DNA from: Methylocapsa sp. D3K7
Lineage (GTDB): Bacteria; Pseudomonadota; Alphaproteobacteria; Rhizobiales; Beijerinckiaceae
Direction of reading: 5' to 3'
Length of the DNA stretch: 64,000 bases
NCBI RefSeq assembly: GCF_029855125.1
Contig: NZ_CP123229.1
Span: 1,488,001 to 1,552,000 of the forward strand
In this document: piece by piece, positions 5,109 through 40,490 of the stretch
Position numbering within the stretch: the stretch's first letter is position 1
Layout of the letters: each line of letters opens with the position of its first letter
Notes under the pieces: model-generated
Told to the model about the DNA's origin: nothing
The model's database searches: none
Seen by the model: the letters and a program-made list of their open reading frames with translations, nothing else
Translations under genes and position numbers: made by a program

Positions 5109-5213
5109 GAAGGTGTAGCTATCATCCTGTTTCCCCGTGTCGTTAAGTTGTTAATTTATCGAGAGTATAGTTGTCAGATCATTCCTTCTCATTTCTAATG
5201 TGTCGCATCCGGT

Positions 5214-5233
5214 GGTCACCATGTGGTCACCAA
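5214..5233. repeat. Island-end repeat, left copy (candidate integrase arm site)
   Basis: GGTCACCATGTGGTCACCAA, identical to 49159-49178 at the other island end. It contains two copies of TGGTCACCA (5213-5221 and 5224-5232) spaced 11 bp apart, about one helical turn, and each is almost palindromic. It sits between the attachment site and the integrase start, where arm-type integrase or excisionase sites are expected. Function is inferred. Confidence 0.55.
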
Positions 5234-5260
5234 AGTCTAGATCGGGACCGGGGCAGTAGG

Positions 5261-7127: not shown

Positions 7128-8207
7128 ATGAGCGTCGAAGTACCGGAGCACGAAACCACATCGACCGCAAACAATTGGGAACCGAGGAATCTGATCCACG
7201 CACTGGTCCTGATGCTGGCAACTTTTGGCGGGGTCTACATTTGCTACCTGCTGGCCATCCCATTTTTGTCTGCTCTCACCTGGGCGCTCGTGCTGGCGAT
7301 TTTGTTTGCTTCCGTTCACCAAGCAATCGAGGCCAGATTGAAGAGGCCCAACCTTTCAGCCACGATCTCGGTCCTGGTGGTGGCGCTGATCATCGTCGTG
7401 CCGGCGACGTTCGTTGCCGAGCGTCTCATCAGTGAAGCAGCAAAGGGTGCAATTGTCATCCAGGCACAGGTCGAGGGAGGCGCTTGGCGGCGTGCAATCG
7501 ATGCCCATCCATGGATTGCACCGATCGACCGATGGATTGAACAGCAAATCAATCTTCCCGCGATTTTCGGGAACGTCGCGTCCTGGCTAACAAACACCGG
7601 CGCATCGTTTGTTCGCGGGTCGGTGGTTCAACTCCTCGGCGTTGTGTTCACCTTCTACCTGCTCTTCTATTTCCTACGGGACCGTCGTATTGCACTCGAG
7701 GCACTGAGAAATCTTTCACCGCTCTCACATGCGGAGATGGACCGACTTTTCCGTCAGATCGTGGATACTGTTCACGCCACGATCTATGGGACCGTGGTTG
7801 TTGCTGGCGTGCAGGGCGCTCTGGGCGGTTTGATGTTTTGGTGGCTCGGTCTCCCCACGCCACTGCTTTGGGGGCTTGTCATGGCCTTATTGGCCGTTGT
7901 GCCTGTCTTGGGTGCGTTCATGGTTTGGATCCCAGCAGCAATCTTTCTGGCGCTCGACGGCAGCTGGGGGAAGGCCATAATCCTCGTCTCGTGGGGTGCG
8001 CTGGTCGTCGGCACTATAGACAACCTCCTGTATCCGATGCTGGTGGGAAACCGCCTGAAGCTGCATACCGTTCCAGCGTTCATTTCTTTGGTCGGCGGTC
8101 TGGCGCTGTTTGGCCCGGCCGGTATTGTCCTTGGGCCGATGGCGATCACGACGACCTTGATGCTTCTTGATGTCTGGCGAACACGGATCGCGGAGCCGAA
8201 AGATTGA
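7128..8207 (+). CDS. AI-2E family (PerM/YdiK-type) transporter
   Basis: A 359-residue integral membrane protein with the family layout: two N-terminal membrane segments (LIHALVLMLATFGGVYICYLLAIP...), another pair near 80-100, an amphipathic stretch, then a hydrophobic C-terminal cluster (LLGVVFTFYLLFYFLRD; GVQGALGGLMFWWLGLPTPL; LLAVVPVLGAF; the terminal FGPAGIVLGPM). The last motif is typical of the AI-2E transporter family. Members include the AI-2 exporter TqsA and several ion antiporters, so the substrate is not predictable. Its stop overlaps the start of the ATPase/adaptor gene by three bases, so the two are translationally coupled. Confidence 0.88.
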   Translation: MSVEVPEHETTSTANNWEPRNLIHALVLMLATFGGVYICYLLAIPFLSALTWALVLAILFASVHQAIEARLKRPNLSATISVLVVALIIVVPATFVAERLISEAAKGAIVIQAQVEGGAWRRAIDAHPWIAPIDRWIEQQINLPAIFGNVASWLTNTGASFVRGSVVQLLGVVFTFYLLFYFLRDRRIALEALRNLSPLSHAEMDRLFRQIVDTVHATIYGTVVVAGVQGALGGLMFWWLGLPTPLLWGLVMALLAVVPVLGAFMVWIPAAIFLALDGSWGKAIILVSWGALVVGTIDNLLYPMLVGNRLKLHTVPAFISLVGGLALFGPAGIVLGPMAITTTLMLLDVWRTRIAEPKD

Positions 8208-11200: not shown

Positions 11201-12220
11201 GTGTCCGGCGTGATCAAGGCGCTCTCCTGCGATGCCAATATGAACGTGAAGGCTGGTCAAGTCTGCGCAAAAATCGATCCGCGTCCCTATCAAATCGTGG
11301 TGGATCAGGCCAAGGCCGATCTGGTGGAAGCCGAAACTCGGCTCGAAAATGACAAGGTCAGTGTCACCCAAGCAAAAGCGGTCTTCGAGCGCGAGCAGAA
11401 CCGGGCGAAGCGTCGGGCCATTGCCCGGAAAGCGCTCGTCAAGTCACGCAAGGCCTATGAGCAGGCGCTAACACGGATGAAGGGCGACGAGAGGACAGTC
11501 GCCCAGCTCCAAGTGGCGCTCCATTCTGCTGAGATCAACCTCGGTCATACCGATATCGCTTCGCCGATTGATGGAAGCGTGATCTCGCGCAACATCGAAA
11601 TCGGCCAGATGGTTTCAGCGGGCTCGGAGACTCCACCGCTCTTCCTCATTGCCGCGGATCTCACCTTCATTCACATCGACACCAATGTCGGCGAGAAGGA
11701 CATCGGCGAGGTCAAGCTCGGCGACAAGGCCACATTCTCGGTCGCGTCTTTCCAAAACTATCTTTTTTCAGGAGAGGTGACGCAAATCCCGCAGTCGACG
11801 CAGACAGATCAGCACGTCGCGGCCTATGATGTCGTCATCCGTGCGGCCAATCCGGATCTGTTGCTCAAACCTGGCATGCAAGCGACCATCCGAATCGTTG
11901 TAGATAGGCGCGACGACGTCCTCCGCGCGCCCAATCAGGCACTGCGCTATTCGCCTAGGGATCTAGTAGTCCCGAACGACGACGGTAGTCCAGGGATGCC
12001 GCCGGATGGCTGGTCGCAGCTCTGGATCCTGCGCGATGGAAAGCCGACAGCGATCACCGTCCGACTCGGTCTCGACGACGGTGCCTACACGGAAATCGTC
12101 GAACGCGAGGTACGGCCCGGCGATGAGCTGATCATCGGCGAAAGTGGCGGCGTCTTGCCTCCGAAGATAAAGGAATGCATCCCGACCGCTTGCCGAGAAA
12201 CGAAAAACGTGCACCCTTAA
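8204..12220 (+). CDS. P-type cation ATPase fused to a MacA/HlyD-like periplasmic adaptor
   Basis: One uninterrupted frame of 1338 residues from a TTG at 8204 (a GTG at 8231 is possible). Residues 1-905 are a complete P2-type (calcium-ATPase-like) pump: N-terminal cation ATPase domain, T176-G-E-S actuator loop, PESLP in membrane segment 4, phosphorylation site D337 (DKTGTLT), hinge T643-G-D-G-V-N-D, and the C-terminal membrane bundle. A Gly-rich linker (~906-939) leads to an extra membrane helix (~940-962) and about 376 residues of adaptor: barrel/lipoyl half (ARVSGVIKAL), long coiled-coil hairpin (~1040-1110), second lipoyl half (TDIASPIDGSVISRN) and a beta-barrel with LKPGMQATIRI. The topology fits: pump C-terminus inside, one more helix, adaptor in the periplasm. 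No stop or shift separates the parts. The cation is unknown; Ca2+ or Mn2+ would be usual for the pump class. Confidence 0.93.
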   Translation: MTTERPGQPVSKPWHCETADEVLERLGASAIGLTNADARKLLAEHGPNALKEAKPISPWAIFFAQFKSVVIWVLIGAGALSGVLGEAIDAFAIFAIVILNAVVGFYQEFSAEKSISALMRMTAPQAKVRRDGAVTSVAATDLVPGDILELEPGDVVAADARLLNVSSLTCVEAMLTGESEAVVKSAETLDQPELPLGDRKNMIFMGTSVAAGLGHAVVVATGMQTEIGHVATLIGDAGEDKGAPLQRKLEAFGRILLWVTLAIVALLFGLGLARGTEFFELFLTSVSLAVAALPESLPAVVTAALSIGVLRMSRRRALVRRLASVETLGSTNVICTDKTGTLTVGQMTVRALFVAGQTYEVTGEGYGPEGDTRIEGKATDDSHATPLRQMAEILIGCNNAHLERINGTWNVIGDPTEGALLAAGHKVGGRRDELERDMPKHHEIPFDSDRKRHSVVRLLPDGRHRAFVNGAPEMLLARCAYIFGDSGIRPMTEADRAQVTEQNAKLAGQALRVLGSAFRDFDPLSPDRLTAETVERDLVFVGLTGLYDPPRPEAKDAVAKCHAAGIRVVMITGDQPRTAIAIARELGIADDAKALSGAELDELMDDMLRERVPSITVYARVSAEHKLRIVRAWQANDAIVAMTGDGVNDAPAIKGADIGIAMGRSGTEVAKQASDMIITDDNFATIVAAVGEGRGIYENIQKTVQYLLSGNSGELLLMTVCVVIGLPAPLLPIHLLWINLVTDGLPALCLATDQVDPAVMQRRPRPQHERIADGGFLKMMLLTAVLTAGVSFAAYAYGLKFTTLELARTYAFTALVFAELLRALGARSATRPLWLTNMRSNINLLAVIGASISVQVWSQHSELLARFFKTARMSYQDGLILLGVSAFPLIVLEIIKSFQRYAVPDWGADDRTGGAATPSAVSGRGGTWQGAGTRGLGWQIPAAAGVVLLAFGGGWLTWSLYRGTAAHYVTQKIERGSVVRIVTASGVIGPIATTPVGARVSGVIKALSCDANMNVKAGQVCAKIDPRPYQIVVDQAKADLVEAETRLENDKVSVTQAKAVFEREQNRAKRRAIARKALVKSRKAYEQALTRMKGDERTVAQLQVALHSAEINLGHTDIASPIDGSVISRNIEIGQMVSAGSETPPLFLIAADLTFIHIDTNVGEKDIGEVKLGDKATFSVASFQNYLFSGEVTQIPQSTQTDQHVAAYDVVIRAANPDLLLKPGMQATIRIVVDRRDDVLRAPNQALRYSPRDLVVPNDDGSPGMPPDGWSQLWILRDGKPTAITVRLGLDDGAYTEIVEREVRPGDELIIGESGGVLPPKIKECIPTACRETKNVHP

Positions 12221-20412: not shown

Positions 20413-20940
20413 TCACTTCTTTGCCTCGGCGTGTTCGTGCCCAGCCGCTGCTATCTTGCCGGTTTCAATAGGCAGGAACAGCGACAGGGGACGACTGGCG
20501 AACGGATGGAATCCTTGGAGCCGGTAAAAGGTAATGGCGTTCTCGTCCTTCGCTTCGACTATGAGCGCGAACGCCTTCGTATCGCCTTTGAGCACGCGAA
20601 GCGCCGCATCGGCAAGCAGAGCACCACCGAGTCCCTTACGATGAAAGCGTTGATCGACCGCCAGGCGACCGACGAGCGCTGCCGGCAAGAGCGGGTAGCG
20701 GGGGAGGCGTTTCACCACGTCCGGCGGCAGATCAGTTGCCGGAACGCTCGTCGCCGCGAGCGTGTAGTAACCGGCAATCGCGCTCGTCGCCCGTTCCTCT
20801 GCGACGAAGCAACTTGCCATGAGCCTCTTCACATCTTGTGAGGCTTGCTCGCGGAGATATCGGTCAAGCGGTGCCGCGCCGCAGGAGAAGGCCGAGCGAT
20901 CATGCGCGCCGAGCGGCTCAATGACAAAGCCGCCCTTCAC
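20413..20940 (-). CDS. tacT: GNAT-family toxin of TacAT type
   Basis: A 175-residue acetyltransferase with the TacT/AtaT layout: N-terminal IEPLGAHDRSAFSCG and LDRYLREQASQD, the catalytic region LVGRLAVDQRFHRKGLGGAL with the acetyl-CoA loop R-x-x-G-x-G, and a C-terminal YRLQGFHPF strand. Toxins of this class acetylate the aminoacyl group of charged tRNAs and halt translation. Its start overlaps the antitoxin stop by four bases (ATGA), the usual coupling. Confidence 0.9.
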   Translation of the reverse strand: MKGGFVIEPLGAHDRSAFSCGAAPLDRYLREQASQDVKRLMASCFVAEERATSAIAGYYTLAATSVPATDLPPDVVKRLPRYPLLPAALVGRLAVDQRFHRKGLGGALLADAALRVLKGDTKAFALIVEAKDENAITFYRLQGFHPFASRPLSLFLPIETGKIAAAGHEHAEAKK

Positions 20941-21227
20941 CGCGACTCGTGAATCAATTCACGGTGACGGCGAAAGGCGCGGCGGAGGGCCGGTGTCGGA
21001 TTGGGAGGATTAAGGATCGCTTCCGCAAAGGCGCGTTGATCCTCGACCGAGAGGCGGATGATTTGCGTCTCCTCGATCGTACGGTTGGCGGCGTCCTGCG
21101 CGGCGGCGACAACGAAATCGCTGACGCTGCGACCGGTGATTTCGGCGGCGCGTTTGACGACGGCGAGCGCATCGGGCGCTATACGCGCTTCGATGCGGGC
21201 CGTGCGGTTCGATTCCTGGGTCATCAT
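20937..21227 (-). CDS. tacA: DUF1778 (TacA-type) antitoxin
   Basis: 96 residues from the ATG at 21227 with an AGAGGG ribosome site. The N-terminal ribbon-helix-helix (RTARIEARIAPDALAVVKRA, AEITGRSVSDFVVAAAQ) binds DNA. The C-terminal tail (LSVEDQRAFAEAILNPP) is the toxin-neutralising part. It precedes and overlaps the GNAT toxin gene, and should repress its own promoter upstream of 21227. Confidence 0.9.
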   Translation of the reverse strand: MMTQESNRTARIEARIAPDALAVVKRAAEITGRSVSDFVVAAAQDAANRTIEETQIIRLSVEDQRAFAEAILNPPNPTPALRRAFRRHRELIHESR

Positions 21228-21271
21228 GCACCCTCTCTTTCTTGCCACAATGTACGGTAAATTGCCGGACA

Positions 21272-22192
21272 AGTCAAAGCCCACCTGGTGCCGGCCCTGA
21301 TTGCCGGCGCCGGCGAGCCGGCCGCCTGGCGCTACATCGAATTCTTCACCAAACCCGAACACGCGCCGGGCTTACGCGCGGGCCTGTAGTCAATTCTTCG
21401 CCTGGTGCGAAGGCCGCGGGCTGACGCTGACGACGATCCGGCCGTTCGATGTCGCCACCTATATCGAGACGCTTCAGCAGACCCATTCGGCGCCAGGCGT
21501 GAAGCAGCAGCTCGCCGCCGTGCGGATGCTGTTCGATTGGCTCATCACCGGCCAGGTGGTGCCGGCAAACCCGGCTTCGGCCGTGCGCGGCCCGAAGCAC
21601 GTGGTGAAAACCGGCAAGACGCCGGTGCTCGACGGCAAGGAGTGGCGAAAACTGCTCGCCGCGATCCCGACAGACACGGTACGGGATCTGCGGGATAGGG
21701 CGCTGATTGCCACCCTCACTTATTCCTTCGCGCGCATTGGCGCGGCGCTGAAAATGAAGGTCGAAGACCTCCGCCCGAAAGGTGCCGGGTGGGAACTTCG
21801 ATTGCACGAGAAAGGTGGCAAGCATCACGTCATGCCCTGTCATCACTCGCTCGCCGAGGCGCTGCGCGCCTATATCGACGCGGCCGGCATCGCCGAGGAC
21901 CGCAAAGGCTGGTTGTTCCGGACATCGCGCGGCCACGCGGCGACCGCCCTTTCCGATGACCCAATGACGCAGCCGGATGCTTGGCTCATGATGCGCCGCC
22001 GCGGTCGGCATTCACGCGCCGATCGGCAATCACTCGTTTCGGGCGACCGGCATCACGGCGTACCTTGCTAATGGCGGCGCGCTGGAGCACGCCCAGGAAA
22101 TGGTGGCGCATGAAAGCCCGCGCACGACGAAGCTTTACGACCGGACGAAGGGGCGGCTTACGCAGGACGAGGTGGAGAGGATCAGGCTATGA
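21272..22192 (+). pseudogene. XerC/D-like tyrosine recombinase, two frameshifts
   Basis: Frame one carries HLVPALIAGAGEPAAWRYI; it shifts near 21345 to NPNTRRAYARACSQFFAW and runs through the core-binding and first catalytic part (DLRDRALIATLTYSFARIGA). It shifts again near 21995 to the end with NHSFRATGITAYLANGG, HAQEMVAHESPRTTKLYDRT and the stop at 22192. Together about 305 residues, normal for the family, with R, the HxxR-like region (HSFRAT), H and Y all recognisable but spread over three frames. It is dead as it stands, and lies beside the TacAT promoter. Confidence 0.85.
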
Positions 22193-22294: not shown

Positions 22295-22867
22295 ATGTCA
22301 GACAGGTCGAAGCAGGAAGACTGGACGAAGCCCGCCGCCATGGCGATCCCCAAAGGGGGCTTCTTCGAGGGTGAAGTTAAGCAAGGCAGATACGTCCCGA
22401 TCTTTCCCCAGACTCCGGCGTGCTACGGCTTCAGCGTCATCGCGAAGGTCATCCCCGGAATGGAAGAGCACATATACAACCATGCCAAGGTCATAGAGAA
22501 AGCAATCGCAGACGATCCCACCACCCTCGCCATACTCAAAGCGCATTACCTGAGATGGGTGATCTTCACCATCAAGGGTGAGAGCTACATGATGTATCAG
22601 GGCATCTTCGACACCGACTTCGACAAATACTGCGAAGACGCCTCTGTCCTGTTCGGGAAGACGGGCATCAAGTCGGCCTTTGAGGCCCTCGAGGGCTGGC
22701 CGGCTGACTACGCGACAAATCCTGCGTCCATCGTCAAGTTTTTCCGCGACCACCAATGGCCGAGCTTTCTCGAATACAGCGAGCATCCCTACGTGAGTTG
22801 CGATGAAATCAAGAAGGCCCTCAAGCTGAAAGCGGCATTCTCGGACATGCTCGACCAGATGCAGTGA
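22295..22867 (+). CDS. Conserved-looking hypothetical protein
   Basis: 190 residues with a good ribosome site (AAGGAAC before the ATG). It reads as a compact alpha/beta protein: strands GFSVIAKVIPGMEEHIYN and LRWVIFTIKGESYMMYQGIF alternate with helices, which recalls ferredoxin-like dimeric alpha-beta barrels. That is a shape-based guess; there is no signal peptide or membrane segment and no family is assigned. It sits between the end of the decayed recombinase (22192) and a second copy of that recombinase's 3' tail (23012-23042), so it looks like cargo. Confidence 0.6.
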   Translation: MSDRSKQEDWTKPAAMAIPKGGFFEGEVKQGRYVPIFPQTPACYGFSVIAKVIPGMEEHIYNHAKVIEKAIADDPTTLAILKAHYLRWVIFTIKGESYMMYQGIFDTDFDKYCEDASVLFGKTGIKSAFEALEGWPADYATNPASIVKFFRDHQWPSFLEYSEHPYVSCDEIKKALKLKAAFSDMLDQMQ

Positions 22868-23053: not shown

Positions 23054-24463
23054 TCAAATCTCAGGTGCCTCAGCATCCCCGTCGAACCGAGGTCTGAAAA
23101 TCATAGAGTAGGAGGTCAGGATCGATCCCATGGGTCCCCACGATCTCAGCCGACCTTCTTTGATGAAGTGGTGTGTGGCGCCAAGCAAGACCTCAAATGG
23201 CAGTGGATACTTGGCATTAGGATTATGGAATACCTGAATTTCTTCGGTCCAGAACTCTTCATTATTTGGGGCGGTGACATCTGCGCTAAACGGAATGCCA
23301 ATTGCCGCATTAGGGTCGGGATCCACCTTCATGCCGATCCGGTAGTAACTATCTCCCGGTACGGCAAAGCCTGCTACGATCCCCATGCGATCGAACTTTG
23401 ATAACGTGCCAGCATTGGAAAACAGAACAGCAGAGATATTCGCCGCAAGCGGATCATCAAAAAAGCCCGATGGGACGACCTTCTCGCCGTATCGATGATC
23501 CTCGATTTTCCGTGCATTGACGACAAGCTTACCGTCCTCAAACGTCCAGTGGACCCGTTGACCATAGAGATACTGCCATAGGGCCGATTGTGTGTAGGTC
23601 ATCGAGCCCAACTTGTCGCTGTCTGCTGGTTTGTGGAAGTCGGCGATTGCAAGGAGAAATGGCTTGTTCTTGCTTTCTTCCCGCTCCCAATAATGCAGGC
23701 CATCCTTATTCGTCCTGCGCAATTTGGAAGAGAGCGCAGAGCCATATTTCATTGGCATGTAATCGTAGAGGAAGGCTCTAATTTCCTCCTGCGTTTTGGG
23801 ATCAGGATGTTCAGCCAAGGGGCCCATTGTTGAAGGAGCAGCTGTGGTAGCTTCCACCGTAAAATCGACTCCTGGCCCCCTGCATCTGAAATCAGGTGCC
23901 TCTAGTTGCTCGACGTCGAGGCCGAATTCGCGCAAAGCGGCCCATAGGTAGATTTCCCACAGCCGTTGATCGAAAGCCTTGCGCTGAAACTCTTCGACCA
24001 TGTGGGGATCGTTAGGTGTCAGCCATGGCCCGATCTCTTTAATCACAGCGCGCGCTGGCGCGCGTGAGCGATCCTCGAGAAGGACGCGAAAGTACGGATG
24101 TAGTTGTGCGGGATCAAAGTCAGTTGGAAGCCGCAGCAAATCAGTCGGCGCATTCGTCTCATCACCCTGCTTGCCAAGTTCGACCAAATCTTCCGTCTGC
24201 TGCGTGTCGTTCATCACTTTCCACAAAGCTTTCTCGGCAGCAGATAAAGAGGGATAACTACAATCGACCTTCGCAGCGCGAAATCGTCCAATAGCGTCCC
24301 GAACCAGCATAGCCCAGCTATAATCGCTATCGATCAGATCACGTCCTGCGGATGCTATGATCCGTTCGTCTGGGGAAGACCACCACGACACCTCATCGAA
24401 TATTCTGTAAAGTTTGGAACGTCGTGTTCCGATAGCATAAAGATTGAAGCGGTGTCGGCTCAT
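23054..24463 (-). CDS. PD-(D/E)xK nuclease-like protein downstream of the ubiquitin-like operon
   Basis: 469 residues from the ATG at 24463; an upstream in-frame start at 24628 would overlap the preceding gene and adds unconserved sequence. A helix with E170 (DQRLWEIYLWAAL), then P190-D191-F and V203-E204-A-T after a strand, has the spacing and context of a PD-(D/E)xK core in which the usual Lys is Thr. The family is not otherwise recognised. It follows the DUF6527 gene on the same strand after 151 bp and could be an effector of that system, or an independent defence gene. No signal peptide or membrane segment is seen. Confidence 0.7.
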   Translation of the reverse strand: MSRHRFNLYAIGTRRSKLYRIFDEVSWWSSPDERIIASAGRDLIDSDYSWAMLVRDAIGRFRAAKVDCSYPSLSAAEKALWKVMNDTQQTEDLVELGKQGDETNAPTDLLRLPTDFDPAQLHPYFRVLLEDRSRAPARAVIKEIGPWLTPNDPHMVEEFQRKAFDQRLWEIYLWAALREFGLDVEQLEAPDFRCRGPGVDFTVEATTAAPSTMGPLAEHPDPKTQEEIRAFLYDYMPMKYGSALSSKLRRTNKDGLHYWEREESKNKPFLLAIADFHKPADSDKLGSMTYTQSALWQYLYGQRVHWTFEDGKLVVNARKIEDHRYGEKVVPSGFFDDPLAANISAVLFSNAGTLSKFDRMGIVAGFAVPGDSYYRIGMKVDPDPNAAIGIPFSADVTAPNNEEFWTEEIQVFHNPNAKYPLPFEVLLGATHHFIKEGRLRSWGPMGSILTSYSMIFRPRFDGDAEAPEI

Positions 24464-24614
24464 TGGCCGGCAAAATGATGCCGCCGCCGTGCGCATTCTT
24501 GCGTGTCGCTTTGCCTCCCCCAATCCCAGCCCCCTATTCGTTTGTACCGCCCAACACCGAGACATTCGTGAGAGGTCGCCGTTAGGCCTACGAGATTCGA
24601 ATACCCACTCGCAG

Positions 24615-25045
24615 CTAGCCCCGCCCAAGCAGCCAGTCTATCAATCTTCGCTTCTTCCCAGGCGTGCCGCCCGGGAACGCGACCGGAGCAGTCGGTGCCG
24701 CGCGGCCCAGGTAGGCGTCTTTTGTCGTGCGATCACGCTGCCGTCCGGCTTCAATCTCGGTCTGCGACATCGAGCCGGCCGGGATCGCTCGACTGTTCTC
24801 GATCCAATAGTGCGAGCGGCACTTGAAGCTCCAATTGCCGATTGACGGGCAGAGCAACACCGTTTCGCCGTCATAGGTTAGCCGCCAGCCGGTCGGCCGG
24901 AGGGTGTCACCCCCTTCATTCCACAACCGCAGAAACAGCTGTGAATGGCTGTCCGGTATTTGATCGAGATGTAAAGCTTCCCATCCTCGCGCGTCGCAGG
25001 GACAACGTTGACAAACTCGAAGGCGATCTGGCGCGGATGCTTCAT
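24615..25045 (-). pseudogene. DUF6527-type protein of the ubiquitin-like operon, frameshifted
   Basis: From the ATG at 25045 (overlapping the E1 stop as ATGA) the frame gives MKHPRQIAFEFVNVVPATRE, strands and a Cys cluster HSCFCGCGMK. It then shifts by one base near 24902 into a frame reading LRPTGWRLTYDGETVLLCPS, NWSFKCRSHYWIE and a basic tail to the stop at 24615. Joined length is about 143 residues. The Cys-x-Cys-x-Cys and later Cys/His residues suggest a bound metal. Proteins of this family are found beside ThiF-type E1 genes. The shift lies in a short C run, so a sequencing error is possible and the gene may be intact in the living cell. Confidence 0.75.
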
Positions 25046-26223
25046 GCAGCGTCCTCATTGTTTGTGTCATTTCGACCGATGGCGTAGGTGCTGTAATGTT
25101 CGCCGCGCCGATCATCGTAGAAGCCGAAAATCTTCTTCCATTTAATCACGGCAAATGCGGCGTGCAGCGCGTTCAGTTCAGCGATCTGGATATTTTTATC
25201 GTATTCGTTTTTCACGCCTCCATCCGACAACGATATCCGTCCCCAAAGATGATCACTATTCTTGGCGGTGGCGGCCGTTGTCCGGAGGAGGCCACCCAGC
25301 ACGTTGTTGCGCAGATAGACCCCCATGCCGACCTCGACAAACGGAATGTTCAGTTGAAGAAGCTTCTCGATCACTGCCTTCTTCACGGTACCGGCTTCCA
25401 TGCTGATGAAGACGAAGTTCATCCCCTCTAGCAGGTGCAGGTTTTCCGCGGACATGAACTCGCGATGCGGCACGATCCCCTTGCGCATCTTTGAATAGAT
25501 GTCGTAAAAATGGTCGACCTTATAGGGTTGCTTCTCTAGTTCATCACCCGATGGCGCACCGGGTGCCCGGAAGGCGTTGTGTTGCAGGAATAGATCGCCG
25601 TCGAAGAGGTGGATTTCCCGAACCGGCACCTTCGCCACATAGTCAAGAATATATCCACCGGTTCCTCCGTGGCCGAGAATCGCTACGCGCCCGAGGCACA
25701 TCTTCCGATTGACCTCGACGATGTCGGCGCGGCTTGAAGCCGTGTCGAAGTAGTTGAAAATCTCGTCGTGCTCATCATCCCTCACCAGGGTAAACGTATT
25801 GGCCGTGACATCCTGGTCGACTTCCTGCGCTGGCCCGCTGATTAGGCGGACGTAGGTCGTGACCTTGTCGTAGAAATTCTCGTACCGGCCGCTCGGTTGT
25901 GGCTTGGCCGATAGGTAGAAGTTTGTTGTCAACTCGTCGCTGACCTTGAGGTTGTTCTCCGAGTTGACGATCTGGGTTATCTGCGAGCCGTCGGCGTGGC
26001 ACGGATATGCGCCGATGAAGTTAGCAGTGTGATCACCAGGCGGGGTCGCGATGTCGTTTGCCAAGGACAATACGCAAACCAAGATGCCACGTTTGATCTC
26101 GTCCTTCGCGGCGAGATAGGGGATGTCCCACACGACCAAATAGGCCTCCACGACTTGAAGGTTGTAACCCTCGTCGCGGAGACGCTTAAGATCGGGGCTA
26201 CGATCGATCGGTCGCTGAGACAT
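25042..26223 (-). CDS. ThiF/E1-like ubiquitin-activating enzyme with N-terminal DUF6791-type domain
   Basis: 393 residues from the ATG at 26223 (ORF open to 26277). Residues ~1-155 match the DUF6791-like N-terminal domain (NLQVVEAYLVVWDIPYL; a PPGDHTANFIGAYPCHADG stretch with His and Cys that may be E2-like). Residues ~165-390 are the adenylating Rossmann fold: nucleotide loop GHGGTGGYILD, then HLFDGDLFLQHN with the Asp and Asn/Arg of E1 enzymes, and IPFVEVGMG. There is no CxxC zinc pair and no obvious catalytic Cys in the usual crossover loop. It would adenylate the C-terminus of the multiubiquitin protein encoded just upstream, whose gene it overlaps by 26 bp. Confidence 0.88.
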   Translation of the reverse strand: MSQRPIDRSPDLKRLRDEGYNLQVVEAYLVVWDIPYLAAKDEIKRGILVCVLSLANDIATPPGDHTANFIGAYPCHADGSQITQIVNSENNLKVSDELTTNFYLSAKPQPSGRYENFYDKVTTYVRLISGPAQEVDQDVTANTFTLVRDDEHDEIFNYFDTASSRADIVEVNRKMCLGRVAILGHGGTGGYILDYVAKVPVREIHLFDGDLFLQHNAFRAPGAPSGDELEKQPYKVDHFYDIYSKMRKGIVPHREFMSAENLHLLEGMNFVFISMEAGTVKKAVIEKLLQLNIPFVEVGMGVYLRNNVLGGLLRTTAATAKNSDHLWGRISLSDGGVKNEYDKNIQIAELNALHAAFAVIKWKKIFGFYDDRRGEHYSTYAIGRNDTNNEDAA

Positions 26224-26653
26224 CGAATACCATGCCATTCTTGATGCGCACCGACTGACCCTTACGGAGCGATCCATGCGGGTTCTCCGGTGGGCCCATG
26301 CCGTAATCGACCGTGATTAGGATATCGGGGCCAGATGGCGGCGTCTCGAACGCCAGCTTGACCACGTCGTCGAAAGTCAGGCGATTCTTAGCGACCTCCT
26401 TGGCCTCCGTATCCACGATAATGGTGAAGACCTTTTGACTGTAGAAATGTTCGTCCAGCTTCAACCGCACATCGCGCGCATGCCGCTCGATCAGCTCGTC
26501 CTCCCCGTCGCCGCTCACCTCGCGGAAGAGATCGTGGTGCTCGGGGACGCCACCCAGCGCGTAGAGTGCCGCGCCTGTCGTCGGGTCGGGCGAGTAATAA
26601 GGCTCACGGTCGACGTGGATGCGGATGTGATCTGTGTGTTCGGTCTCGTTCAT
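26198..26653 (-). CDS. Multiubiquitin-domain protein (two ubiquitin-like repeats)
   Basis: 151 residues. Two beta-grasp repeats: about 9-72 (IRIHVDREPYYSPDPTTG...LFREVSGDGEDELI) and about 73-148 (KVFTIIVDTEAKEVAKNRLT...ILITVDYGMGPPENPHGSL, RIKNGMVFDVS). The ending VFDVSATDRS is typical of multiubiquitin family proteins and lacks a Gly-Gly. This is the presumed protein modifier or tag, first gene of an operon with the E1 and DUF6527 genes. Ubiquitin-like/E1 operons of this kind were recognised by comparative genomics and some bacterial ubiquitin-like systems act in antiviral defence. No defence role is shown for this one. Confidence 0.88.
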   Translation of the reverse strand: MNETEHTDHIRIHVDREPYYSPDPTTGAALYALGGVPEHHDLFREVSGDGEDELIERHARDVRLKLDEHFYSQKVFTIIVDTEAKEVAKNRLTFDDVVKLAFETPPSGPDILITVDYGMGPPENPHGSLRKGQSVRIKNGMVFDVSATDRS

Positions 26654-26742
26654 AATTCTACCTTTCGTCGGTTGACACCTTATTCCTGGTGGATTTGGCC
26701 TATGCGACCTTCGCCAGGGACAACCTAGACGATTTCGTATAG

Positions 26743-26772
26743 ATTAAACCATACAATTTGCCATTGAGTCAA
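26743..26772 (-). promoter_or_regulatory. Promoter of the ubiquitin-like operon (minus strand)
   Basis: On the minus strand TTGACT (26772-26767), an 18-bp gap, then TTTAAT (26748-26743), each one base from the sigma-70 consensus. It reads leftward into the multiubiquitin gene, about 90 bp upstream of its ATG. It overlaps the opposite promoter and the left operator arm. Confidence 0.55.
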
Positions 26773-26796
26773 CTATTCTGGTATGATTTTGTATGG
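26749..26796. promoter_or_regulatory. Shared XRE operator between divergent operons
   Basis: Perfect inverted repeat CCATACAA (26749-26756) and TTGTATGG (26789-26796), 32 bp apart, flanking both divergent promoters. A regulator bound here would control the ubiquitin-like operon and the XRE-ImmA pair together. The likely ligand is the XRE protein encoded alongside. Inferred from symmetry and position. Confidence 0.55.
26758..26787 (+). promoter_or_regulatory. Promoter of the XRE-ImmA operon
   Basis: TTGCCA (26758-26763), an 18-bp gap, TATGAT (26782-26787): a good sigma-70 match about 65 bp upstream of the XRE start at 26851. The two operator arms lie just outside the -35 and just after the -10. 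Confidence 0.6.
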
Positions 26797-26850
26797 ATGG
26801 TGGGTTGGCGACTTTGCCCACCCAATGGAGGAGCGGCGGGAGGTGTGTGC

Positions 26851-27171
26851 ATGGCGCTGGCGGCGAGGCTGAAAGAATTGAGGATAAAAACGCGGAAGTC
26901 CCTGCAGGATGTCGCCGATGAAATCGGAGCCTCGAAGGCTCATGTCTGGGATCTGGAGTCGGCGCGGGCGAAGAATCCGTCCATAGAACTGCTGACCAAG
27001 CTGGCGAAATGCTTCAACGTCAGCGTCGCTGATCTCATCGGCGAAAACCCCAATGGCGTCGACGAGGAGCCGCAACTGGTCGCCATGTACCGCGAGCTCA
27101 AGGAACTTTCGGAAGACGACAGAAAAGCGATCCAGTCGATGATGGACCATTTTAGGAAGCGGGAGAGCTAA
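26851..27171 (+). CDS. XRE-family transcriptional regulator
   Basis: 106 residues from the ATG at 26851, which has a GGGAGG ribosome site; the longer frame from 26758 lies over the promoter and is rejected. The helix-turn-helix spans about residues 5-58 (TRKSLQDVADEIGASKAHVWDLES) and a short helical C-terminus follows (ELSEDDRKAIQSMMDHF). Its stop is followed three bases later by the ImmA/IrrE peptidase start. XRE-ImmA pairs usually work as a repressor and the protease that removes it after a signal. Divergent from the ubiquitin-like operon over a shared operator. Confidence 0.92.
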   Translation: MALAARLKELRIKTRKSLQDVADEIGASKAHVWDLESARAKNPSIELLTKLAKCFNVSVADLIGENPNGVDEEPQLVAMYRELKELSEDDRKAIQSMMDHFRKRES

Positions 27172-27174
27172 GTC

Positions 27175-28068
27175 ATGCAGGTGACCCGGATGGATCTCGA
27201 TGGGACCGGGTCACCGATGGGCCTGGTTGGAAAAATACTCAAGGCAGAACCCGCGCTCACTCTTCCGGTGCCGATAGAGCAACTCGCGCATCAGCTCGAC
27301 ATTGCCGAAATCCGCGACCTATTCGCCGACGGATTTGAGGGCGGATTGATAACGGACGACGCACGCAGTAGCGGGTTCATTTTGGTCAACCACGCCGCGC
27401 GGCGCGGCCGCCGGCGCTTCACTATCGGACACGAATTGGGGCACTTTCTCATGACTACACACAAGCCGCCGGCGGGAGGATTTCAATGTTCCCGCACCGA
27501 CATGCGGCGCTGGACCGACAAGGAAAAAGGCGGTGCCATCCGAATGGAGGTCGAGGCCAACGAATTTGCGGCCTTAATTCTGATGCCGCCCCCGCTCTGG
27601 CGGGCGGAATTGGCAAAGTTCCGCGAACCCGATCTCGCCCAGATCGTTACGCTGGCGGGGCTCTTTGATGTTAGCAAGGAAGCTGCCGCCCGCGCCTACG
27701 CTCAATACAGTGAAGAACCTGTGGCCGTCGTGGTGGCGAAGGATGGCAAGATTGACAAGGTCTACCGGGACATCGCTCGCTTTCCGCGGCTGGGTGTGAC
27801 CACCGGCGCTCCAATGCCAGCGAATTCCCTGTTGTTTCGCGCAGGGCGAGAGCTGAACTATCCGTCATCCATTGCGGAGGCTCGCGCAGAAGCTTGGCTC
27901 GAATCCGATTGGGGCAAGCCTCCGCCGGGGCTCTATGAGCAGGTGTTTTTCCAACAGAACGGCTTCGCCCTGATCATGCTATGGGCGAAACTTGCTGACG
28001 AGGAAGAGGACGATGGCTGGGGCGAGAAAACCGCCAAGCAGCGCCTTCAGGACCGCCTGGCGAGGTGA
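27175..28068 (+). CDS. ImmA/IrrE-family metallopeptidase
   Basis: 297 residues. The zinc motif H86-E-L-G-H90 sits in FTIGHELGHFL, and the third ligand glutamate in VEANEFAALILMP (around residue 127-130). The C-terminal half (about 180-297) is an extension without a recognised domain. ImmA-type proteases cleave or inactivate their partner XRE repressor, as in ICEBs1 and in the Deinococcus IrrE/DdrO pair. It is coupled to the XRE gene, so its likely role is to release the divergent ubiquitin-like operon from repression when a signal arrives. Confidence 0.92.
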   Translation: MQVTRMDLDGTGSPMGLVGKILKAEPALTLPVPIEQLAHQLDIAEIRDLFADGFEGGLITDDARSSGFILVNHAARRGRRRFTIGHELGHFLMTTHKPPAGGFQCSRTDMRRWTDKEKGGAIRMEVEANEFAALILMPPPLWRAELAKFREPDLAQIVTLAGLFDVSKEAAARAYAQYSEEPVAVVVAKDGKIDKVYRDIARFPRLGVTTGAPMPANSLLFRAGRELNYPSSIAEARAEAWLESDWGKPPPGLYEQVFFQQNGFALIMLWAKLADEEEDDGWGEKTAKQRLQDRLAR

Positions 28069-28146: not shown

Positions 28147-28455
28147 CTACTTCACGTGGAGCTCGACGCCCGCCTGTTTCTGCAGGTAGCCAATGATGCC
28201 GAAAAGATTGCGGGCCTGCGGATTGCCCCGCGGGCCGAACATGCGGATAAGGCTTTTCGGCTGCGTGCCGGTTACCTCGCCGAGCTTCTCGAAGCCGACG
28301 GTCGCCTTGATATAGTCGCGGAGGATTGACTTGCCGGTGTCAATATCGCCGGCGAGCATGGTGTCGATGCCTTCGCGCAGCAACGCGTCACCGAAGGCGG
28401 GATCGCTTGCAATCCGCTTCTGCACCAGCTCTTTGAAACTTCGTGTCAGTGCCAT
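28147..28455 (-). CDS. higA: HigA-like antitoxin (helix-turn-helix addiction-module antidote)
   Basis: 102 residues: SFKELVQKRIASDPAFGDALL, then a compact DNA-binding helix pair (KATVGFEKLGEVTGTQPKSL, RMFGPRGNPQARNLFGII). This arrangement is typical of antidotes paired with RelE/ParE-like (Gp49-type) toxins. It follows the toxin gene by 19 bp on the same strand, the usual HigBA order. It should repress its own operon. Confidence 0.85.
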   Translation of the reverse strand: MALTRSFKELVQKRIASDPAFGDALLREGIDTMLAGDIDTGKSILRDYIKATVGFEKLGEVTGTQPKSLIRMFGPRGNPQARNLFGIIGYLQKQAGVELHVK

Positions 28456-28474: not shown

Positions 28475-28834
28475 TCATCGCGCCGGCGGTTTTCGCCGAC
28501 GCTTGTAATCCGCCCACAAGGCCTTCGCCTGTTCGATGTCGCGTTGCTGGCGCTTCTTGGTGCCGCCGGTCAGCAGGATTACCAGCACCTCGCCGTCGCG
28601 CCCGAAATATACCCTATATCCCGGCCCCCAATTGATCCGGTACTCGAGCAGCCCCTCGCCCACGCCTTTGGCGTTCGAGAGATTGCCTTGCTCCACCCGC
28701 GCGAGGGCCACGGACACTTTCGCCCCCGCTGCGGCATCCAGGCCGGAGAACCATTCTTCGAACGGGCTTTTCCCATCGACGGCCAGGTAGTAGCGCAGTT
28801 CAAGCACACCATAAGGTAACATAAAGGTTACCAT
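28475..28834 (-). CDS. higB: RelE/ParE-superfamily (HigB/Gp49-type) toxin
   Basis: 119 residues (ATG at 28834, or at 28822). It has the RelE-fold toxin pattern: FEEWFSGLDAAAGAKVSVAL helix, VGEGLLEYRINWGPGYRVYFG strands and ILLTGGTKKRQQRDIEQAK. Toxins of this family are ribosome-dependent mRNA interferases. It is the first gene of the pair, upstream of its antitoxin. Confidence 0.88.
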   Translation of the reverse strand: MVTFMLPYGVLELRYYLAVDGKSPFEEWFSGLDAAAGAKVSVALARVEQGNLSNAKGVGEGLLEYRINWGPGYRVYFGRDGEVLVILLTGGTKKRQQRDIEQAKALWADYKRRRKPPAR

Positions 28835-29183
28835 TATTCAAGCCTTGAATCGGGTGGTCTACCTCTGCCCGCTGCCCATCCGGCGCTACGCCCATGAGCT
28901 TCGATGCCGGTCGAACAGAGCGCCCTTGGCATGACGCTTCCCGCCACCAAGGCGGTCCGCAGGCGGCCTCTCATGTGGGCCAAGATGACCGGTCCCGCCT
29001 CCGGATCAACGCGGCTCGCTTCCGCCCCGGATCAAGTCCGAGGTTGTGCAGCTCCGCCCGCTTCGCGGCGCGCCCCCTGCCTTCGACCGGCGGCGCGGCG
29101 TTTGATCCCTCTTCTCAATGGTCCCGGTCCCTTTTGCCCCACGAGGCCGCAATCGTGCGGCCCGCAAACAAAGGGGAACCGCC

Positions 29184-29882
29184 ATGACCAAAGAACGCTT
29201 CGATATTCACCAGCACATCACCGACAAGATCGTCGCCGCGATCGAGCGCGGCGCGGGAGACTTCCGCCTGCCCTGGCATCGCTCCGCCAGCAGCATTATG
29301 CGCCCTGTCAACATTGCGTCGAAGAAAGCCTATCGCGGCGTCAATGTCGTGGCGCTCTGGGCCTATGCCGAGGAATTCGGTTACAGCTCCGGCACCTTGG
29401 GCACATACAAGCAATGGACAGAGGCCGGCGCTCAAGTACGAAAGGGCGAGAAAGCCGCCTTCGTCGTCTTCTACAAGGAGCTTGAATTCGCCGCGGATCC
29501 TGAGAGCGGTGACGCCGAGACGGCCACCCGCCTCTTCGCCCGCGCAACGCCGGTCTTCGCCGCCGAACAGGTGGATGGCTATCAGGTTCCGGTCATCGAC
29601 CCCCTGCCCGCGACGGACATCACGCCGATCGAGCAGGCCGAGGCTTTCGTCGCCGCGACCGGCGTAACTATCCATCATGGCGGCAGCCGGGCGTTCTCTC
29701 GTCCCTCGACGGACAGCATTCAGCTTCCCCCACGCGAAGCCTTCATCAGCACCCGGAAGAGCACGCCGGCGGAAACGCCGATCTTCGCATCACCGACGAG
29801 CGTCGCGCTGAAGGAGATCTTCACCGCCGCTTCGAAGGCATCCGAGGCCGCCGCGTTCTTCGCGGCTCTTCCGAGCACGTGA
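29184..29882 (+). pseudogene. ArdC-like antirestriction protein, C-terminally truncated
   Basis: 232 residues from the ATG at 29184 with an AAGGGGA ribosome site. The N-terminal ssDNA-binding part is intact (ITDKIVAAIERGAGDFRLPW, NIASKKAYRGVNVVALW, KGEKAAFVVFYK). After LPPREAFIS (about residue 190) the match to ArdC ends; the zinc-peptidase segment with HExxH that should follow is replaced by an unrelated stretch. The N-terminal half could still bind DNA, but the metallopeptidase is lost. ArdC homologues are common cargo of conjugative elements and islands. Confidence 0.75.
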
Positions 29883-37477: not shown

Positions 37478-38677
37478 TCACGCGCGAGTGTTCTTCACAA
37501 TCTCGGCATATTGTCGAGCAGCGGAGATGCTAGTTGCACGGTTATAATGCTCTTCGGTGACCCTGCGATCGATATGCTGCAAGACGCCGCTGGCCAGATT
37601 CAGATTGTCGCCGGCGTGGGTGTAGATCGCCGTGGCAGCGCAAGTCCGGAAGAGATGGGGGCTGACCGCAACACCGAGCGTCAGGCAGGTGGTCTCGGTT
37701 AAAGAGCGCTCGACGGCGGAATAAGTCATGCGCCGGCCGCCATTGGACGTCAGCCAGAGCGGCCCCGCGATATTGGCCAGCGGATCGACGCCTGACCCCG
37801 GAGTGTTCGCTTGTCTCACAAGGCAAGCCTGCGAGCCGAAGGTCTCGACGCCGCCTTTAGTTTTGGTAGCGGCTAGAACCGCACGATACAGCAAAAGATA
37901 CGTTTCGATGGCAGCGTCCAGGTCACGTGGCACGCGCCGTTCATCAGGGCGGCCGCTCTTCGTAACCTTGCGATCGAGGACGACCCACCATCTTGTTCCC
38001 ACTCTTCGAAAGCTCGCTTGCAGTTCGAGTGCAGCAAAGTTCTTAAGGCGGATCGGGCAGAGCACCATGAGGGCGACCATAAGTCCATTGCGGACCTGCC
38101 TTGCGCGGCGCAGCGGCGTTAAACCGGGATTTTCCGTCGCCTCCTCGATGAAAGTAAGCCCAGCTTCGAAAAGACGATCAGGATCTACAATACGATGGTC
38201 CTTGGATTGCGGCCGCATCATCAAGGCAAAATCCTTTTCGATCTCGGCAAGCCATGTGAAGTTGCGGTTTGGATCGAGCAATTGAGCCGCTCGACGCAGC
38301 TTGTGGATGGTGGCGGCCGTCGTGACCGAGCTGATCCGGATGCGTAATTCATCCACGAATCGTTCGACGTGGTCTGGGGTTACCTGTCCAGCCGCGTGTG
38401 ACTCACGCTCGAAGCGATCGTTGCGGATGAGATGATCGATAAAATAGCCGTAGCGACGAGCTAGATCGTCCTGCGTGACAGGGGCAAGGTGAGCACCGAC
38501 CCCGCCTTTACGCAGACGGACGCCAGGCGCGATCGCGCGCTCCCACGCAGCCCGGTCGGCGATCGTCCAACTTGCGATCGGCACGGAGCGTACGGGCGTC
38601 GTCGGGAGATCTCGGCGCGGATCGCCGCGCGTGGATCTCTCGGGATTTGCGCCATGTTGTGTCCTTTCAGTCGTCAT
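37478..38677 (-). CDS. Tyrosine recombinase (second of a tandem pair)
   Basis: 399 residues from the ATG at 38677 (frame open to 38758); overlaps the upstream recombinase stop by 11 bp. The C-terminal catalytic domain has R (VLCPIRLKNFAALEL), H-x-x-R (VSPHLFRTCAATAIY), a QH motif (ASGVLQHIDRRV) and Tyr (EEHYNRATS). The N-terminus is a core-binding domain with helix MTTAATIHKLRRAAQLL-like composition. It is unlike the island integrase at 5261. Two overlapping tyrosine recombinases preceded by a small helix-turn-helix gene recall the Tn554-type transposon arrangement. Confidence 0.85.
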   Translation of the reverse strand: MTTERTQHGANPERSTRGDPRRDLPTTPVRSVPIASWTIADRAAWERAIAPGVRLRKGGVGAHLAPVTQDDLARRYGYFIDHLIRNDRFERESHAAGQVTPDHVERFVDELRIRISSVTTAATIHKLRRAAQLLDPNRNFTWLAEIEKDFALMMRPQSKDHRIVDPDRLFEAGLTFIEEATENPGLTPLRRARQVRNGLMVALMVLCPIRLKNFAALELQASFRRVGTRWWVVLDRKVTKSGRPDERRVPRDLDAAIETYLLLYRAVLAATKTKGGVETFGSQACLVRQANTPGSGVDPLANIAGPLWLTSNGGRRMTYSAVERSLTETTCLTLGVAVSPHLFRTCAATAIYTHAGDNLNLASGVLQHIDRRVTEEHYNRATSISAARQYAEIVKNTRA

Positions 38678-40490
38678 CGCCCTGCCCCGCCCGCTGCTGA
38701 CGCAAGGTCTGGACGAGATCACCATAGACCTCACTGGCATGAGTGGATTCGAGACCAATGTAATTGCGGATCGTGACCTGCACCGTGCGATGGCCGAGCA
38801 AGAGGCGGACGAGTTCGTAATTGCCTGGCTGGTGCTTAAGGATGATCGCTGCCGAGACGTGCCGGAACTGATGCACGGTTAGACGCAGACCGATCCTTTT
38901 TTCGATGAAGGGCGTAATCTGGTCGCTCAGCGTCGTGAGAAGCTTGTGACTCTTCCCCGCCCCCGGGAACAGCCATAAATCTTCCGCGCAATCGATGAGC
39001 GCAGGACGATAATTGGAAAGATGATCGTCTATGAGCGCGGTCAGCTCGGCATCGAGCGGAAAGTCGAGCTTGACCCGGTTCTTCACATCGTAGTTCGGAA
39101 ACACAAGCCGGTAGGGCGTTTGCGGTCCGCCAGTTCGAATAAGATTGTGCTTGAGGCGAATCGTCCCGAGATTTCTGCGGCGGATCGGAGCCACATTGAG
39201 GATAGCGATTGCAACGGCCATTTGCGCCCGCACCGCCGCCTTGATTGGAGAGGAATAAGAGGCCTCTACTGCCTCTTCCATCAGAACCTCCGGTAAATGA
39301 TGCAGTTCCCTCCAGGCGTCGCTTTGCATGAAGGTGCGGATGGCGGCAAGGTTCTTGTCGGTCATGCCTTCAGGACGATAATGTTCGAGATCGGCCCGAA
39401 TGTCGTCGAGCTCTTCTAGCTTGTCTGCCGGCAAGCATTTGCTGCTCCGTGCGAGGTTGACGAAGAGATTGACGAGGTCGATCGTAAAGATGGAGGGCTC
39501 TTCGCCGCTCTTGGCCCAATAGGCGTCAAGGACCTGCCGGCTGACGGCGGGATTGAGAAAGGCGGAGAGAGAGCCCAATTCCTCCATGCCGATGCCGATC
39601 CGGGTTGCCATCCTGAGCGCCGCTTCGAGCATAGCACGGCGGCCCCGGATCGTGGTTGCCCTGGCCGGTGGCACTCGCTTGCCCTTGGCTGTCCTGCGGA
39701 CCCGCGTGAGACTTTCGAGATAGGCCTCGATCTCGTAGCGCAAGCCAATCGGATAGGCTTCCCAGGGCGGAAACGCTTCCGCCTTGCGCGACGGTGGTTC
39801 GAATAGAAGCTTACTCGGCCAGCCGGGAACCGTCCGCGCCAGATCATTCCAATGGCGCGCCAATGAACGCCGTGCCGCAGCGTCCGCCGCAAGCGAGGTC
39901 GTACACCGGCGATAATCCAAAAAAGAGTCGATGACCGCCTCGTCGACGGCACTCACCGCGATATTGCGTGCGGAGCAAAATCGCATGAGAGGCAATAGAC
40001 GCGTCCTGTGGGGCAATTTTGGGCACACGTCCCGCAAAGCCTCCCAGTCACGCGAGAGGCGCATGCCGCGGGCCGGCACACTCTTTTCCTGGCGCATCCA
40101 AGCAAGTGCGGCCCGGACATTCGACAGATGATTGGCAAGCGTCTTTTGGGTGACCCCAAGCCGGGTGGGTTTTAGCCGACTCGCCGGAATATGGACCGCT
40201 GTCCAGCGCGCGGGCACCAAGGCTATCGGCCGATCGAGAAACGTCGCCAGCCGGCGCAGCGAACACGGCCAATGGTTTTTCACGTCGGCCGGCAGATCTG
40301 GGTCGGCCACGATCGCGGCGATGGCCTCCTCGAAGGAAGGCTCGTGCAGCGCGATTTCGCGGCCGGCCGGAACGGCACCAGGAAGGGTCATGCCGCTGAG
40401 ATCGCTCATTGGGCGCGCATCTTGAAGCAGGGGGGTTAATTTAGGTAGATCGAGTTTCATATTGGAGTAAATTAGGATTACGTCAAGCAT
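38667..40490 (-). CDS. Large tyrosine recombinase (first of a tandem pair)
   Basis: 607 residues from the ATG at 40490; ATGs at 40460 and 40409 are alternatives and none has a strong ribosome site. Catalytic domain near the C-terminus: R (NVAPIRRRNLGTIRL), H-x-x-R (TVHQFRHVSAAIIL), GH (LLLGHRTVQVT) and Tyr (IRNYIGLES). The long N-terminal half (about 1-390) is larger than in XerC/D and is typical of TnpB-like or RIT-type recombinases. It overlaps the next recombinase gene, so the two are translated together. Confidence 0.87.
   Translation of the reverse strand: MLDVILIYSNMKLDLPKLTPLLQDARPMSDLSGMTLPGAVPAGREIALHEPSFEEAIAAIVADPDLPADVKNHWPCSLRRLATFLDRPIALVPARWTAVHIPASRLKPTRLGVTQKTLANHLSNVRAALAWMRQEKSVPARGMRLSRDWEALRDVCPKLPHRTRLLPLMRFCSARNIAVSAVDEAVIDSFLDYRRCTTSLAADAAARRSLARHWNDLARTVPGWPSKLLFEPPSRKAEAFPPWEAYPIGLRYEIEAYLESLTRVRRTAKGKRVPPARATTIRGRRAMLEAALRMATRIGIGMEELGSLSAFLNPAVSRQVLDAYWAKSGEEPSIFTIDLVNLFVNLARSSKCLPADKLEELDDIRADLEHYRPEGMTDKNLAAIRTFMQSDAWRELHHLPEVLMEEAVEASYSSPIKAAVRAQMAVAIAILNVAPIRRRNLGTIRLKHNLIRTGGPQTPYRLVFPNYDVKNRVKLDFPLDAELTALIDDHLSNYRPALIDCAEDLWLFPGAGKSHKLLTTLSDQITPFIEKRIGLRLTVHQFRHVSAAIILKHQPGNYELVRLLLGHRTVQVTIRNYIGLESTHASEVYGDLVQTLRQQRAGQGDDD

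Follow-up and report, generated by a model that had tools for sequence, protein, structure and literature searches.

The window analysed here is a stretch of 64,000 nucleotides from Methylocapsa sp. D3K7 (contig NZ_CP123229.1, positions 1,488,001 to 1,552,000). On its minus strand lies a three-gene operon that encodes a multiubiquitin protein made of ubiquitin-like (Ubl) domains, an E1-type enzyme and a DUF6527 protein. On the plus strand, divergent from this operon, lie an XRE repressor and an ImmA/IrrE protease that match CapH and CapP. Gene families were assigned with Pfam, NCBIfam and PADLOC profiles. The genes, including two open reading frames (ORFs) for DUF6527, are as follows.

26198..26653, minus strand: ubl, multiubiquitin protein Ubl, 151 amino acids (aa); PF14452, E = 1e-21, two Multi_ubiq stretches; C-terminus ...FDVSATDRS
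25042..26223, minus strand: E1, 393 aa; DUF6791 (residues ~10–161; PF20590, E = 3.5e-51) fused to ThiF/E1
24878..25045, minus strand: N-terminal part of DUF6527 with the HxCxCGC motif, in its own frame; the ATG at 25045 overlaps the E1 stop
24615..25115, minus strand: ORF of 166 aa with the C-terminal part of DUF6527 (PSIGNW..CxSHYW); PF20137, E = 3.2e-11, positions 20–59 of 63 of the profile only
26851..27171, plus strand: CapH-like XRE repressor, 106 aa; PADLOC capH, 1.2e-26; most likely start ATG 26851
27175..28068, plus strand: CapP-like ImmA/IrrE (M78) protease with the motif HELGH; PF06114, 8.2e-15; PADLOC capP, 1e-57

The first-pass annotation, made from the sequence alone, had described an overlapping operon of multiubiquitin, E1 and DUF6527 genes, with the XRE and ImmA genes diverging from it. 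The divergence was correct. The operon genes are real, and their ends overlap: the ubl and E1 genes share 26 bases, and the natural DUF6527 start overlaps the E1 stop codon. The DUF6527 gene, however, is split over two frames. The ORF 24615–25115, taken as this gene in the first-pass annotation, holds in frame just the C-terminal part of the domain. In relatives of ~143 aa (P0241 onward) both parts are held in one frame. A DUF6527 search of the own genome gave the two adjoining pieces and one weak match elsewhere (E = 0.41). The split may reflect decay of the gene, an error in sequencing or a programmed frameshift. The protein carries a metal-type signature, C37-x3-C41-x34-C76-x2-H79, and none of the solved folds matched it convincingly. 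At another locus (L121, 1468–2660) the E1 match spans two ORFs in different frames, so that a second genome has a frame-split operon member.

The Ubl relatives (64 proteins) are 81–273 aa long, and the final residue is Ser in all 65 aligned Ubls, with no C-terminal GG. A profile of nine Ubls matches PDB entry 9cd2, 'multi-ubiquitin domain protein' (E = 1.9e-24); a related Ubl has thus already been solved. The E1 starts at 26223 and is 393 aa also in the database copy P0001. Its ThiF match (E = 1.2e-5) is below Pfam's cut-off. The adenylation residues D208, D210, N216, R219 and K235 are present in 71/71 E1s, and the window E1 has all five. H65 (70/71) and C75 (69/71) both lie within DUF6791, and C75 is the only near-invariant cysteine of the E1; a second column, 274, is Cys in 60/71 E1s and Ser in the window. 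The best structural match of the ThiF half is BubCD, and MccB and ThiF structures are also close. No JAB family was matched by Pfam in the three-gene operon, and no E2-type Pfam family among the core genes (Pfam families were searched, and no BubB query was used). The core operon probably attaches Ubl to other proteins.

Relatives of the E1 were collected with a profile of 35 E1s against the GTDB genomes. At least 544 related stretches were found, and the best 80 were kept as loci; 70 non-redundant loci remained after those at least 85% identical had been dropped. Fetched loci are labelled L, sampled genomes G and relative proteins P. By a rule of proximity to the E1, Ubl is present in 69/70 loci and DUF6527 in 69/70, both together in 68/70. 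The exceptions are L002, which begins inside the operon, and L075, where the DUF6527 match lies ~2 kb further on. According to the record titles, the best 80 loci come from proteobacteria, Acidobacteria, Bacteroidetes, cyanobacteria, Chloroflexi, Planctomycetes, Actinobacteria, Halanaerobium, Patescibacteria and two archaea. The E1 is uncommon nearby: in random samples, DUF6791 was found in 7/385 genomes of the window's class and 19/397 of its order. On plasmids, an E1 match was found in 115 of 72,556 records, 45 of them Acinetobacter. One Klebsiella plasmid copy stands beside a gene annotated as a TnsD-family Tn7-like transposition protein (L172, 6765–8195).

The regulator pair and the shared promoter

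The tie between the XRE–ImmA pair and the ubiquitin/E1 operon, suggested by the first-pass annotation, was borne out. CapP-type genes were sought within 3 kb with an iterated M78 profile, and the upstream count was limited to loci whose upstream DNA spans 2.5 kb or more (n = 59). Such a gene lies upstream of ubl in 36/59 loci, in 31 of them divergently, against 2/58 downstream of DUF6527 (Fisher p 4e-12). The HExxH motif is kept in 58/61 M78 matches over all fetched loci. The idea that the protease removes the repressor equals the published mechanism, in which CapP cleaves CapH and is activated by single-stranded DNA, according to the accounts of this pair in PMC13373217 and PMC10904395.

Between the divergent genes lies a predicted promoter region. 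Its elements are as follows.

26780..26796, minus strand: predicted CapH operator O1, CCATACAAAATCATACC on the minus strand, 7 bases upstream of the ubl −35; at the same place in L123 and L067
26743..26772, minus strand: predicted ubl promoter, −35 TTGACT (26767–26772), 18 bases, −10 TTTAAT (26743–26748); read directly and from the alignment
26730..26742, minus strand: predicted second operator O2, CTATACGAAATCG, just after the ubl −10

In the 24 bases upstream of the −35, L123 is identical to the window at 19/24 and L067 at 18/24 positions; for each, 0/20000 shuffles reached this value. The CapH proteins of L067 and L123 are 66% and 52% identical to that of the window. By eye, the TACGAA of O2 is found at about the same place in L067, L123 and L166, and TACAGA in L165. 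Another, distant CapH clade (four loci; 26–30% identity where measured, with no usable comparison for L050) has a different motif, TGTTCG. Its members L050 and L095 share 19/24 positions with each other and 3/24 with the window. On the plus strand, a sigma-70-like capH promoter overlaps O1. A simple promoter scan of the region did not report the ubl promoter. Since the capH–ubl layout of operators and promoter is similar in two other genomes, the regulator pair and the operon are probably linked in regulation, and this predicted layout is the best direct evidence for it.

Five plasmids (L165–L169) carry XRE genes that are 63–71% identical to the window CapH, and their sites score 13–14/17 against the operator consensus. 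Six plasmid CapH homologues were opened out of 51 records, and in all six an ImmA gene follows CapH. Opposite these cassettes stand operons headed by a nucleotidyltransferase (four, L166–L169), a TIR operon (L165) and, in one case, insertion sequence elements. The nucleotidyltransferase operons, with SAVED annotated in L166 and an HNH endonuclease in L167–L169, are read as those of the cyclic-oligonucleotide-based antiphage signalling system (CBASS). CapH and CapP were reportedly described as CBASS regulators by Lau in 2022. The CapH–ImmA cassette seems to be modular and swapped between defence systems.

A small DUF2188-type gene was observed upstream of ubl in five loci: L011, L050, L095, L133 and L049 (6798–7172), with a Pfam match in L049 and look-alike sequences in the other four. 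In L011, L050 and L095 it lies between CapH and ubl. In L004 and L034, a pair of AAA ATPase and subtilase genes lies directly upstream of ubl; the same clusters occur in both, the ATPase having been scanned in L034 and the subtilase in L004.

The proposed mechanism and its alternatives

The operon, its conserved association with the regulators, the conserved promoter sites and the intact adenylation residues can be read in the sequences. With these, we consider it rather probable that a Ubl conjugation operon is silenced by CapH and freed when CapP cuts CapH, whereupon E1-driven Ubl conjugation begins. The CapH-type repressor would keep the Ubl/E1/DUF6527 operon silent. By analogy with the published CapH–CapP work, the CapP-type protease would most likely be activated by single-stranded DNA that arises from damage or during phage replication, and would then cut CapH. 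The E1 would adenylate the Ubl C-terminus and pass Ubl on, probably via Cys75 of DUF6791, which would serve as an E2-like site within the same protein. The choice or processing of targets would fall to DUF6527, and the whole may serve in phage defence. More tentatively, and with somewhat less than even confidence, we suggest a distinct JAB-less conjugation system. It would have an E1-fused E2 site, a serine-ended Ubl and a metal-binding DUF6527, of a fold without solved relatives, that selects or releases targets. It would repeatedly be placed under DNA-damage sensors (CapH–CapP, WYL-type, LexA-type, or a fusion of M78, UvrD and PD-(D/E)xK domains). The main reading links a widespread, little-studied ubiquitin-like operon with a known DNA-damage switch whose operator sites are predicted, and the induction of the operon is directly testable.

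Several points weigh against this proposal. No upstream CapP was found in 23/59 loci, and in several of these the scanned genes included no stress regulator that could be recognised (upstream genes, one or more per locus, were scanned in 22/23; L029 was left out). Among the CapP-less loci, WYL regulators lie upstream of the operon in L021 and L055, LexA/S24 regulators in L035 and L036 (also in L028, with a shorter flank), and the M78–UvrD–PD-(D/E)xK fusion in L071 and L079. Regulators of these three types are linked to DNA damage elsewhere, and their presence speaks for the proposal. Thus, CapP is sometimes replaced by another regulator, but not always; the remaining loci have TrmB, a MarR-like match, a RES–Xre pair, genes of defence type (BrxL, DndB) or no gene that could be recognised. 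At the promoter, L165 has the closest CapH seen (71%), yet its site matches at 13/24 (shuffle fraction 0.002), against 19/24 for L123 with 52%. The similarity of the sites therefore goes not only with CapH but also with the ubl promoter, and shared ancestry may account for part of it. The frame split of DUF6527 argues that the window copy may be impaired and not work fully, unless the shift is programmed or stems from faulty sequencing. For the E2-like view of DUF6791, the sequences give no support: a profile search of the PDB gave unrelated matches only, and hhalign of DUF6791 with five Cap2-type N-termini gave a probability of 0.1, no better than controls. Phage protection by Bub operons is not demonstrated, according to the account of these operons in PMC13373217.

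Ubiquitin-like/E1 operons were already known, as the first-pass annotation had stated. Row 6e of Iyer, Burroughs and Aravind (2006; PMC1779556) describes polyUbl operons with a Zn-finger-like protein and an E1 in which a distinct domain, 'X', replaces JAB. This domain is presumably DUF6791. As described there, type 6e resembles the window operon in its one to three Ub-like domains, its E1 with a non-JAB N-terminal domain and its small Cys/His protein of metal-binding type, and also in its patchy spread, partly on mobile DNA. The window matches the JAB-less subset in the Ub-like protein (PF14452, two stretches) and in DUF6791–ThiF without JAB. The operon is thus a new example of a type in print since 2006. 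The signature given for 6e, C-x3-C-x(35–38)-H-x2-C, differs from that of DUF6527, C-x3-C-x34-C-x2-H, in the order of the last C and H. The description of 6e has no regulator pair, unlike the window. For its role, addiction or protection against invasive replicons was speculated upon in the same paper.

Citrobacter Bub (BubA/BubB/BubCD; PDB 9ea4, 9ea5, 9eav) provides the best structural match of the E1, BubCD, which appears to be a JAB–E1 fusion. Mainly the ThiF half aligned, whereas the DUF6791 that precedes it in the window has no sequence alignment to the N-terminal part of BubCD. The third gene of the window operon is also different, being DUF6527. Control by CapW or CapH–CapP is already in print for Bub operons; according to PMC13373217, 219 of 544 operons have one or the other. 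As in the CapH–CapP pair of CBASS, the window has an XRE repressor followed by an M78 protease with HExxH, divergent from a putative defence operon; here, however, the pair faces a Ubl/E1 operon. Bil (BilABCD), as outlined in PMC11354881, has four genes (Ubl, E2, JAB and E1), whereas the window operon has three, with no JAB or E2 family match. Multi-Ubl relatives on two plasmids match the Methylobacterium Ubl–BilA structure 8u38.

The chemistry of DUF6791 may be different from that proposed. It could substitute for JAB as a Cys–His hydrolase that trims Ubl or removes it from targets, akin to the guess of Iyer et al. for the uncharacterised E1-fused domain. The replacement of JAB at the E1 N-terminus in their description (PMC1779556), the nearly invariant H65 and C75, and the lack of a sequence link to E2s agree with this reading. 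However, the order predicted for DUF6791 (helix, strands, H/C loop, helix) is, by eye, similar to the UBC layout. In addition, no other candidate was found for the E2 step or for the E1 catalytic Cys, column 274 being Ser in the window. We regard the hydrolase as fairly unlikely. A sulfur-carrier or small-molecule chemistry of the ThiF/MccB kind, in which the E1 adenylates the C-terminus of Ubl or another peptide for biosynthesis, is improbable. The closeness of the ThiF half to MccB and ThiF structures and the Ubl end in Ser without GG would fit it, but BubCD, the best structural match, is from a pathway named ubiquitination-like. Moreover, the recurring upstream partners are regulators, and no recurring metabolic gene was seen among the neighbour clusters listed, and most neighbour clusters are unannotated. 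The chemistry of DUF6791 and the fold of DUF6527 would matter for the number of routes by which protein conjugation evolved in bacteria.

The remaining alternative concerns a gene behind the operon, taken as a PD-(D/E)xK-like effector in the first-pass annotation.

23054..24496, minus strand: PD-T7-1 homologue, start ~24463–24496; PADLOC PD-T7-1, E = 3.4e-143, 475.6 bits, positions 2–448 of 452 of the profile; a neighbour judged to be outside the system

The alignment begins at residue 54 of the listed ORF 23054–24628, so that the true start is near 24463–24496. The gene is a full-length homologue with the conserved PDF...VEATT stretch. It lies on the same strand behind DUF6527. According to the first-pass annotation, the XRE–ImmA pair, the ubiquitin/E1 operon and this gene would form one system, with the nuclease-like protein as the released effector. 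The position of the gene, only 120–150 bases behind DUF6527, speaks for this, yet with such a gap membership of the operon does not follow. PD-T7-1 and DUF6791 share a contig in G004, ~32 kb from each other, and in G266, where ~10 kb separates them and they are on opposite strands. In the class sample (385 genomes; PD-T7-1 counted when full-length with E < 1e-50), PD-T7-1 was found in 6 and DUF6791 in 7 genomes, both in 3 including the window; without the window genome the co-occurrence is 2/384 (p 0.002). In the order sample (397 genomes), the numbers are 11, 19 and 2, and the co-occurrence without the window genome is 1/396, on different contigs (p 0.38). PD-T7-1 was found in 4 of the 72 E1-positive genomes (72 of the 80) against 15/780 sampled genomes (p 0.07). 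Besides the window, it lies near the operon in 1/80 loci (L080, 1.4 kb away), and the other PD-T7-1 loci showed no E1 match within their 1.5-kb flanks. Beyond the core trio and the regulators, no neighbour family recurs in more than 6/70 loci. PD-T7-1 itself came out of a functional selection in E. coli, and 'ubiquitin' is absent from the main text of that paper (PMC9519451). Of the two genes expected to co-occur with the ubiquitin/E1 family, the protease recurs beside it; for the PD-(D/E)xK gene, co-occurrence at the level of genomes is weak or inconsistent. The single system is very improbable. PD-T7-1 looks like a separate phage-defence gene in a loose island association at most, not an effector, and the homologue would work on its own beside the operon controlled by CapH and CapP.

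A fused regulator in a sister branch and the surrounding island

The idea of a protease, a nuclease and ubiquitin acting together finds a parallel in a sister branch, in one fused polypeptide, and in this it favours the single system. In L071 (3743–7198) and L079 (3795–7208), a protein of ~1,140 aa with M78 protease, UvrD helicase and PD-(D/E)xK nuclease domains is encoded directly upstream of ubl. By annotation and tblastn, the fusion also lies directly upstream of the multiubiquitin gene in L172 (1–3205) and L173 (821–4222). On plasmids, tblastn matched 92 records, 45 of them Acinetobacter. Among the best 40 of these 92, 17 are non-Acinetobacter. Comparison of the two match tables showed that 16 of the 17 are also among the best 40 of the 115 E1 records, with the E1 764–793 bases downstream on the same strand; the seventeenth is Robbsia.

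The operon was placed by the first-pass annotation in an island with two toxin–antitoxin pairs. The first pair and the second toxin were found, but the second antitoxin is inferred from its position.

20413–21362: GNAT/TacA pair
28475–28834: HI1419-type RelE/ParE toxin
28147–28455: putative antitoxin of the RelE/ParE toxin, with no match in Pfam, NCBIfam or PADLOC

Three tyrosine-recombinase-like ORFs lie around the region (5171–6580, 21301–22071 and 38667–40490, the last below Pfam's cut-off) and suggest insertions of mobile elements. Between an integrase-like ORF and PD-T7-1, a 190-aa ORF (22295–22867, plus strand) has no credible match in Pfam, NCBIfam or PADLOC. The ORF 29118–29882 (plus strand) has an ArdC-type antirestriction N-terminal domain, and the metallopeptidase profile is matched in its first third only; it is apparently truncated. 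Further away, one ORF of 1338 aa (8204–12220, plus strand) combines a calcium-type P-type ATPase (residues 20–900) with an RND membrane-fusion adaptor (970–1253), which is an unusual fusion.

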